Of a DNA stretch of 64,000 nt, positions 59,521 to 61,525 are shown piece after piece. The stretch comes from Nodosilinea nodulosa PCC 7104 (GTDB lineage Bacteria; Cyanobacteriota; Cyanobacteriia; Phormidesmidales; Phormidesmidaceae). The notes beneath the pieces are model-generated. The model searched no databases. It saw nothing but the letters and a program-made list of their open reading frames with translations, and was not told the origin of the DNA. The position numbers and the translations under genes are program-made. Each line of letters starts with the position of its first letter. Within the stretch, counting starts at the first letter, position 1. The DNA is taken from assembly GCF_000309385.1 (NCBI RefSeq), contig NZ_JH976537.1, forward strand, positions 3,156,540 to 3,220,539, read 5' to 3'.

Positions 59521-60024
59521 GATGCATAATGCCCTCCAAAGCTAAAAATCAAGCTAAATTCTACCTTTAGACCCTGCATTTCAGGGCGATTAAGCTCATA
59601 AATTACCTATGTTTTGTATTGGGAATACTTATAGACAGTATTAGGATCCCTGTCAAACCGGGTGAGAGATCGTGCCTCTGCGGCGGGGAAATGGTTGACT
59701 AGCAGGCCTTACGAAGATCGTGCCCATCGCCTCGGGCTGACTTAGTGGAGCGGCGCCAGCGCTGCTGCTCCCCCTAAGGAACCCTAAATCTGTAGGACAT
59801 TCTAAGCGCCATCTATAGGATTCCTGTAGGACTCGATCTGGAGCTAGCGCTCCAGCAGCCCCAGCACTGGGGGGGCCAGAGCATAGGGAGCATGGCCAGG
59901 ATTCCGTCTCCGCATTGACGATCTCTGCTGTTCTAAGCGCATTTATGGGCGCATCAGCCAAGCTATATGTAGCCACTGATTGGCTGGGTTTGCAGTAACC
60001 CTGGGCACATGCATTAAATTACCT
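59521..60024. other. Long intergenic region
   Basis: About 500 bases with no credible gene. A palindrome TGGAGC-TAGC-GCTCCA lies near 59841. The rest shows no repeat or motif I can name. The sequence downstream of 60025 is the structured leader of a small gene. Confidence 0.5.
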
Positions 60025-60107
60025 ACAGGGAGAAAATTTTCGGGGTGCCTATCCCGAGACTGGTTTGCCGGGGCTTGCACCTCGGCCATTGAGCCTTTTC
60101 TCCCTGT
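60025..60107 (+). promoter_or_regulatory. Three-way-junction RNA leader upstream of a 44-aa gene
   Basis: A perfect 12-bp outer stem, ACAGGGAGAAAA (60025-60036) with TTTTCTCCCTGT (60096-60107), encloses two hairpins. These are TCGGG/CCCGA (60040-60044 and 60053-60057) and GCCGGGG/CCTCGGC (60067-60073 and 60080-60086, one G-T pair). This is a compact three-way junction in the 5' leader, ending 25 bases before the ATG. It could be a cis-regulatory RNA or a small RNA; I cannot match it to a known riboswitch class by eye. Confidence 0.55.
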
Positions 60108-60132
60108 TGTTCTGTCTCTCTGAGGTATCTCC

Positions 60133-60267
60133 ATGGCCGACAAAAACACAATCAAGCAGCACATTGCCCTGACCAGCAAGATCAACTTCGACGGCGTTAC
60201 CCCCGCCAAGAGTGAAGACCCCCGCAAAAAGCGGATTATGGAGCACGTGAAAAAAAGCCTCGGCTAG
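60133..60267 (+). CDS. Small Lys-rich protein (44 aa)
   Basis: ATG at 60133, stop TAG at 60265-60267, with a GAGG ribosome-binding site seven bases upstream. The sequence starts MADKNTIKQHIALTSKINFD, continues GVTPAKSEDPRKKRIMEHV and ends KKSLG: soluble, charged, probably two short helices joined by a loop. I do not recognise a family. Good start signals, the structured leader and well-behaved codons make it likely to be a real gene. It is convergent with the M23 peptidase gene, ten bases away. Confidence 0.65.
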   Translation: MADKNTIKQHIALTSKINFDGVTPAKSEDPRKKRIMEHVKKSLG

Positions 60268-60277
60268 GGTTTAACCG

Positions 60278-61489
60278 CTACAGGTAGCCCATGGGGTTGA
60301 CCGGGTTGCCGTTTTGACGCACCTCAAAGTGCAGGTGAGGGCCGGTAGAGAGCCCCGTAGAGCCAACAGCCCCAATTGCTTGACCCTGCTGTACTGCCTG
60401 CCCTTCCTGCACAAATATGCGACTGGTGTGGCCGTAGAGCGTGCTCAGGCCGCCGCCATGATCGATAATGATGGCCTGACCATAGCCCCCGTACCAGCCC
60501 GCAAAGATGACCCGACCGGAGTCGGCGGCGTGAATAGTGCTGCCGTAGCTGGCGGCAAAGTCTACCCCGGCATGGAAGCGGCTATGGCCCAAAATGGGGT
60601 GAACCCGGTTGCCAAAGCCGCTGGAAATGTTGGCGTTGGCGGGGTAGACAAACCGTCCGGTGCCGCGAATGACGCCAGTGCTAGCCGCAACTTTTTGGCG
60701 AATCAGGCTGGCAATTTGCTCCGAGTCGCGGGCGAGCTGATCTTCCGCCGCTTCCAGGGCACCGCGACGGTCTTTAAGGCGCGAAATCAGCTCCTTCTCT
60801 GAGCTGGCTTCGGCTTCGTACTGCTGCTTTTGAGATAAGAACTGCTGACGCAGGAGGGCAACCTGGTTGCGCTTATCTTCGACGGCGGCTTTTTGCTTTT
60901 CAATGGCGTCGGCTTTGGCCTTGAGATCGGCGAGCACCTTGCGATCGCTGGCGTAGACCCGCTTTAGCTGGTACTGGCGATCGAGAAACTCGTTGAAATT
61001 TTGGCTCTGTAGCAGTACGGCCCAGCCCTCGCTGCCCTGCTGCCGCTGCAAAAACTGAAGGCGGGCTACCGTGCCCGTGCGCACCTTTTCATAGTCGTCT
61101 TCGGCTTTTTTGAGCTGAGCCTCAAAGTTCTTTAGCTCTTTTTCGGCCTGGTCGAGGCGAAACTCGGTCTCGGCGATTTGGTTGGCGGTATAGACAATGT
61201 TGTTGTTGAGATTCTCTAGATTCGACTCTGAGGTGGCCTGGCGATTTTGCAGTTCGTTTTGCTGCTGCTGGAGCTGGTTGCGCTGCTGATCGATGGTTTT
61301 TTGCTTGTTTTGCAAATCTTGAATCGATTCGGCCACCAGCTCGGGGGGAGCGGCTTGGGCGCTAGATACAGCCGTTAGCCCCAGCCAGACCGCTATCCCT
61401 AGGGCGAGCACGAGGCTCAGGCCGCGAGCCCATACGGCGACCATGGGCCGCCCAGATGGCGCAGAGGAAAACCGATGAGTTTGCTGCAT
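60278..61489 (-). CDS. EnvC-like murein hydrolase activator, M23 peptidase domain
   Basis: 403 residues from the ATG at 61489. A signal peptide (RGLSLVLALGIAVWLGLTAV, cleavage near AQAA) directs it to the periplasm. A long coiled coil follows (about 50-265, ESIQDLQNKQKTIDQQRNQL onward). The C-terminal LytM/M23 domain (about 285-400) has the metal-site motifs HAGVDFAASYG (HxxxD) and TGPHLHFEVRQNG (HxH), with GYGQAIIIDHGGGLSTLYGH between. All zinc ligands appear present, so the domain may be an active endopeptidase rather than a degenerate activator. EnvC-like proteins trigger amidases during cell division. Confidence 0.93.
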   Translation of the reverse strand: MQQTHRFSSAPSGRPMVAVWARGLSLVLALGIAVWLGLTAVSSAQAAPPELVAESIQDLQNKQKTIDQQRNQLQQQQNELQNRQATSESNLENLNNNIVYTANQIAETEFRLDQAEKELKNFEAQLKKAEDDYEKVRTGTVARLQFLQRQQGSEGWAVLLQSQNFNEFLDRQYQLKRVYASDRKVLADLKAKADAIEKQKAAVEDKRNQVALLRQQFLSQKQQYEAEASSEKELISRLKDRRGALEAAEDQLARDSEQIASLIRQKVAASTGVIRGTGRFVYPANANISSGFGNRVHPILGHSRFHAGVDFAASYGSTIHAADSGRVIFAGWYGGYGQAIIIDHGGGLSTLYGHTSRIFVQEGQAVQQGQAIGAVGSTGLSTGPHLHFEVRQNGNPVNPMGYL

Positions 61490-61525
61490 GAGCACAGGCA
61501 ATACCTGAAATGGGAAGTTTGGAGC

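Follow-up and report, generated by a model that had tools for sequence, protein, structure and literature searches.

Results

A conserved small gene with a structured leader

Within the window (the whole stretch of 64,000 nucleotides of Nodosilinea nodulosa PCC 7104 DNA that was analysed), a structured leader precedes a gene for a protein of 44 amino acids (Table 1). The product, MADKNTIKQHIALTSKINFDGVTPAKSEDPRKKRIMEHVKKSLG, contains 10 lysine plus arginine and 5 aspartate plus glutamate residues; it was first described as a small Lys-rich protein. The gene is real. Its conservation, which the initial annotation had proposed as a check, is evident in 46 of 63 family genomes at E <= 1e-8; relatives are present in 28 of 57 near genomes and, at E <= 0.01, in 111 of the 388 genomes of the class, many of these matches being weak and partial. 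Synonymous changes account for 11 of the 18 codons that differ from L005 and for 12 of the 20 that differ from L029, and are fewer in comparisons with more distant loci (10 of 25 for L021, for example). The two motif copies in the protein centre on I-x-x-H. A predicted model of low overall confidence (mean pLDDT 70.2, pTM 0.28) places helices at residues 4-14 and 30-43.

Table 1. Features of the leader and small gene in the window.
Feature	Position	Strand	Basis
Putative promoter: TTGCAG 59990-59995, 19-nt gap, TAAATT 60015-60020	59990-60020	+	inferred from sequence reading only
Three-way-junction leader RNA	60025-60107	+	fold, covariance model, pair counts
P1 5' strand, pairs with 60096-60107	60025-60036	+	fold; 96.7% of cells paired (15 leaders, 8 modelled pairs)
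P2 hairpin, 60038-60046 with 60051-60059	60038-60059	+	fold; pair columns 19-34 in 15 leaders
P3 hairpin with bulge, 60062-60073 with 60080-60086 and 60091-60095	60062-60095	+	fold
P1 3' strand	60096-60107	+	fold
GAGG ribosome-binding site	60122-60125	+	7 nt 5' of ATG 60133
Gene for the 44-aa protein (K/R-x-x-I-x-x-H motif present twice)	60133-60267	+	ORF, relatives, codon changes, predicted model

Neither the window protein nor its relatives matched Pfam or NCBIfam above the curated cut-offs, a PDB search returned no relative of the small protein, and tblastn searches with a relative's protein (L104) against plasmids and with the window protein against phages yielded nothing. Three-motif relatives with a proline-rich spacer, 91-113 aa long by ORF lists, are found in other cyanobacterial clades (L103 295-618; L104 293-568; L122 1498-1839 and L115 1492-1779, both on the minus strand), and no family name was obtained for them. 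At L073 (198-422, minus strand) a relative of the small protein has an N-terminal extension and measures 74 aa from a TTG start. In the window, a convergent ORF (60278-61501, minus strand), whose product we take to be an M23-type peptidase, lies 10 nt downstream of the 44-aa gene. The minus strand of 59850-60300 holds three terminator-like sites (60040-60057, 60188-60209 and 60261-60277; 0.4 expected), the last of them just beyond the end of the convergent ORF.

Folding of 60025-60110 gives -43.5 kcal/mol, against a mean of -27.13 for 200 sequences with shuffled dinucleotides (z = -5.21), none of which folded as well, which confirms the initial reading of an 83-base leader in which a perfect 12-bp stem encloses two hairpins. 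All 12 pairs of P1 are free of mismatches. P3 is the weakest helix of the junction, with 87.6% of cells paired in 15 leaders, and the P2 pair at columns 19-34 is GC in 10 of these, UA in 4 and CG in 1. The ribosome-binding site, called good at the outset, holds up as well: GAGG or AAGG precedes the start codon at 17 of 21 loci of the genus. TAAATT is kept at the promoter position in 16 of the 21 and would set the first transcribed base at about 60025, hence P1 at the 5' end of the RNA. A consensus promoter scan restricted to spacings of 16-18 nt reported no promoter at the window leader, and a terminator scan reported no terminator-like site there on the plus strand. A GTAACCCTGGGCAC-like sequence is conserved between the putative -35 and -10 boxes (59995-60008 in the window, and in genus relatives); judged by eye it is imperfectly NtcA-like (GTA-N8-CAC) and is a possible candidate for a repressor site.

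Conservation of the junction within the genus

The window's genus is of the Nodosilinea type, and the labels of relatives include Nodosilinea, Leptolyngbya and Phormidium. A covariance model built from 11 relatives, with the window excluded, matched the window at 60023-60106 (57.6 bits, E 7.8e-13). In the covariance search that had been suggested for cyanobacteria, carried out over 60 family genomes with filters that miss weak matches, the window scored E 3.4e-11, and the 12 strong matches (E <= 3.4e-11) all fell in its genus, one per genome, each directly 5' of the 44-aa gene. Three weak matches (E 0.038-0.092) comprised one at the gene in G023 and two elsewhere (G019, G159). Among the 21 genus loci with the gene (the window and L002-L021), 13 match the model at E <= 0.0013 and L016 at E 0.026; no credible junction match was found at the leaders of seven (L002, L006, L017-L021), and with the weak junctions of L003 and L016 the structure is absent or weak at 9 of 21. 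Folded as single sequences, 9 of 13 relatives have the junction as their best fold, the exceptions being L002, L003, L008 and L016.

Compensatory changes in the stems, proposed at the outset as a criterion, were looked for in two alignments. The first, A16, holds 15 leaders (L016, E 0.026, is excluded) and is fitted to the structure, so its counts are biased towards the structure: 91.8% of its pair cells are standard, against 89.1% in shuffles (none of 500 as high) and 29-62% when partners are slid. Doubly changed cells number 13 against 6.2 in shuffles (0/500), and the covariation score is 0.251 against 0.213 (1/500). Two counts do not exceed chance: doubly changed pairs (5 versus 4.0, reached by 168 of 500 shuffles) and further pair types (23 versus 24.6, reached by 457 of 500). 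The sequence-aligned A14, which excludes the window, L003 and L016, gives 93.3% paired cells and 8 doubly changed cells against 3.3 (0/500). Since standard pairs, doubly changed cells and covariation score exceed the shuffles and the measures of pair number do not, covariation backs the junction fold moderately. The unpaired stretches, loops and junctions alike, vary among the 15 leaders. GGGAGAA near the start, within P1, is retained in two genus leaders (L017 and L019) that lack the junction, and the conservation of P1 may therefore have a cause other than the fold.

The window leader is thus a conserved structured 5' leader of the 44-aa gene. The glutamine riboswitch and the Downstream-peptide motif are structured leaders before small cyanobacterial protein genes, and the window leader differs from them in having no Rfam match at the gathering level. 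A search at that level, both classes included, gave no match at the window or at 19 relatives' loci, and relaxed limits added two chance-level matches to unrelated families; on the strength of these zero gathering-level matches the leader is a genus-specific structured leader outside all Rfam classes; in the initial annotation, too, it had been matched to no familiar class. The initial annotation had also likened the pairing of a structured leader with a small gene to cyanobacterial RNAs that control short proteins. A structured leader and a conserved gene are indeed present, but the seven genus loci without the junction, the two where it is weak and the quite different leaders of the sister genera speak against a fixed class of RNA plus small gene. 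Of the homologues, those at the strong matches in the genus share the leader, and those of the sister genera do not.

Leaders of the sister genera carry a segment antisense to psbA

What precedes the gene outside the genus? We compared the leaders of the same small-protein gene in a further 25 family genomes. The segment GTGATGATTG is found in 16 of the 25, spread over eight genera, and 9 are without it; Oscillatoria sp. CS-180 (L051) and Halomicronema sp. CCY15110 (L054) are among the strains with the segment; L022 has a variant of the segment and L026 a degenerate version. In an alignment of 14 of the 16 segment-bearing leaders (L085 and L096 excluded), TAGTGATGATTG is invariant at a mean column identity of 49%. 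L027 has a promoter-like TTGAGA-N17-TATATT (1 site versus 0.4 expected), and in its fold 13 bases of the segment are left unpaired between a 5' hairpin and a second hairpin that runs into TTTTT. A terminator scan of L027 did not report this second hairpin, probably owing to the loop limit of the scan, and T-tails are poor in some sister leaders (L086, L095). Eight of the 16 segment-bearing leaders were folded, some with bases past the hairpin included, and in these the segment lies between the 5' hairpin and the second, terminator-like one. The best folds of L027 and L084 leave it open, and that of L086 does so for the most part; for L025 and L089 the centroid structure has it open whereas the best fold does not, and in L023, L090 and L100 some of its bases are paired.

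Searched for in all 388 class genomes, the pattern CRTAGTGATGATTGCC is present in 16, and its reversed control matched no genome. Its 25 places are 10 leaders of the small-protein gene, 12 psbA start regions, where it lies on the antisense strand, and 3 others; nine genomes carry it in both leader and psbA. A D1 match falls on 11 of these psbA places, and the twelfth, in G387, was identified from its first codons. At the target site the psbA mRNA reads ...TGGCAATCATCACTATG. Judged from the sequences, the segment of the sister leaders is the antisense of a single psbA copy around its start codon, an arrangement that suggests a trans-acting role in these genera. As for the 3 other places, those in G129 and G200 (L130, L131) resemble coding sequence, and the one in G031 (L140 507-522) has psbA start-region sequence followed by ATGAAATTCTAG, which is not psbA, and is a remnant or an assembly error.

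In 11 of the 13 leader-psbA pairs examined, none of 300 shuffles gave as good a duplex; 6 of 300 did so for L098 and 17 of 300 for L026. The match distinguishes between copies of the gene: perfect runs with the target copy reach 16-19 nt in 7 of 10 genomes (G033, G336, G026, G227, G032, G208, G114) and are shorter in G196 (11 nt), G265 (10 nt) and G028 (6 nt), versus only 4-6 nt with 18 other psbA copies fetched from the same genomes, which are not their full set. The target copy encodes a Gln130 D1 in 8 of 9 aligned cases; G159, with one psbA match in its assembly, has Glu130. Gln130 presumably marks the low-light form of D1. No copy with the site was found among those fetched from G029, G030 and G351. 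In G196, whose leader has the segment, GTGATGATTG also occurs twice near a psbA copy (L244 7-16 and 2798-2807, minus strand).

The psbA match is absent from the window's genus

The Gln130 psbA of the window's genus (P0002) reads TTGGCACTTTTACCATG. Against its start region, 233 of 300 shuffles of the window leader pair as well or better, and for the other 12 leader-psbA pairs of the genus, a set that includes three rows without the junction (L006, L018, L021), 23 to 298 of 300 shuffles are as good. The longest perfect run of the window leader is 6 nt with the Gln130 copy and 5-7 nt with the other four. Across the window's 696 ATG/GTG starts of frames of 150 codons or more, nested ones counted, it is 5-12 nt. 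Copies of the antisense segment elsewhere were sought in 26 Nodosilinea genomes with a pattern that fits only psbA variants with GGCAC: all 10 exact matches were psbA itself, and 3 places had 3 mismatches versus 2 for the reversed control. In G000 no other antisense copy of the segment was found. Pairing of the P2 loop with psbA ATTGGCA in Nodosilinea was considered and rejected on the duplex test against shuffles.

Discussion

Based on these observations, we propose that the locus consists of a gene for a small two-helix protein and a regulatory 5' leader, which would be an anti-psbA RNA in the sister genera and would have been rebuilt in the window's genus as a structured, probably cis-acting leader; we give this reading a probability of roughly 0.58. 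Conservation of the gene, conservation of the fold, the antisense match and its copy specificity are the observations on which it stands. In the sister genera, transcription would begin at the leader's own promoter (TTGAGA/TATATT) and would stop early, at the second hairpin, to give a small RNA of about 100 nt; read-through past this hairpin would yield the small protein. In the cell, the segment of the small RNA would pair with the Gln130 psbA mRNA from 13 nt ahead of the start codon through the codon itself, which would keep ribosomes from starting and block translation of this copy. We favour by a slight measure the full form of the proposal, as the sequences suggest it: a trans-encoded small RNA of the relatives would pair around the start codon of the psbA mRNA for the Gln130, low-light type of D1 and silence that copy selectively, leaving other D1 copies untouched, and would thereby act as an RNA switch between D1 forms, joined in one transcript to a two-helix protein. 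The leader of the window's genus, presumably descended from such an RNA, would no longer pair with psbA and would persist as a structured leader in rebuilt form.

What might the leader do where it no longer matches psbA? In the window's genus the junction would begin at about the first transcribed base, and the leader most likely acts in cis, protecting the mRNA and setting its translation. It may instead be a trans-acting small RNA like its sister counterparts, with a different mRNA target. The position and gene shared with the sister leaders, the resemblance of those leaders to small RNAs and a fold that is stable alone speak for this reading, but the plus strand of the leader is without a terminator-like site, the unpaired stretches vary among the 15 leaders, and the longest match to the start of Gln130 psbA, 6 nt, lies within the 5-12 nt given by the 696 start positions of the window; we consider it doubtful.

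For the sister RNA, the main alternative concerns the sign of its effect. It might pair with psbA and protect it, for instance from RNase E, thereby raising D1 synthesis. According to PMC6202907 and PMC10989914, the cis-encoded RNAs PsbA2R and PsbA3R have a positive effect and are reported to shield RNase E sites. Here, however, the paired stretch covers the psbA start codon, so that ribosomes are expected to be hindered, and the overlap of PsbA2R with its mRNA is described as confined to the first 19 nt (PMC10989914); a protective effect thus seems unlikely, and we retain translational block as the predicted outcome.

The window fold could also be a functionless by-product of sequence shared among close relatives. 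It is restricted to the genus, absent or weak at 9 of 21 loci, and its covariation exceeds the shuffles only modestly. Against this, a model built without the window still finds it at E 7.8e-13, paired cells fall from 91.8% to 29-62% when partners are slid, and one P2 pair occurs as GC, UA or CG; we therefore hold this explanation to be improbable. A shared DNA element, such as a protein-binding site, might account for the sister match in place of RNA pairing, as both copies are short and nearly invariant, but the match spans the psbA start codon, sits downstream of the putative leader promoter and is in antisense orientation at 12 of 12 psbA places, which makes such an element quite improbable. 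A ligand-binding riboswitch controlling the small gene, suggested by the likeness of a three-way junction 5' of a small cyanobacterial gene to the glutamine riboswitch, is the least likely of these explanations, given the lack of an Rfam match, the variable loops and junctions, the seven genus loci that have the gene without the junction and the lack of a strong match before other genes in 60 genomes (two weak ones lie elsewhere, in G019 and G159).

The proposed sister RNA has partial precedents. PsrR1 is described as a trans-acting cyanobacterial small RNA of high light that blocks translation of photosystem I and phycobilisome mRNAs (PMC13421787); it base-pairs with photosynthesis mRNAs (PMC13421787), as the sister leader is predicted to do, and differs in its targets; the sister leader has its match in psbA and is followed by a protein gene. 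PsbA2R and PsbA3R of Synechocystis share with the sister leader that they are antisense to psbA 5' regions (PMC6202907, PMC10989914), but they are cis-encoded opposite their own psbA and positive, whereas the sister RNA is encoded at a separate locus and its predicted effect is negative. In PMC3960264, psbA1 is named among computer-predicted small-RNA targets in Synechocystis, and PMC8136909 describes a regulator of OCP, an sRNA derived from a transcript's 3' end. The literature covered, which left subscription papers and preprints outside its scope, held no trans-encoded small RNA shown to act on psbA. By description only, the window protein may be likened to PirA (Ssr0692), a positively charged protein of 51 aa whose 5' UTR is reported to be under NsiR4 control (PMC8092223, PMC9196836), both being small and positively charged, and the window leader is putatively regulatory as well. 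The promoter sequence of asr1328, the Anabaena PirA gene, as given in PMC3898017, had no match in sets of 36 and 388 genomes. In family f32, which we guessed to be Nostocaceae, a clear relative of the small protein (E <= 1.3e-8) is encoded by just 9 of 60 genomes, which argues mildly against identity with PirA.

What would such an RNA mean for the control of photosystem II? The sister leaders are best described as putative trans-acting small RNAs, a known kind that appears here in a new variant. D1 turns over more rapidly than the other photosystem proteins, and in many cyanobacteria one D1 form is exchanged for another as light changes. In the sources consulted, psbA control has been described as transcriptional and as exerted by cis-encoded antisense RNAs. 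If the proposed mechanism is true, an RNA from another locus that distinguishes one psbA copy by its start region would add a layer to psbA control, and the window would represent a case in which a leader RNA has been replaced while the gene behind it was kept.
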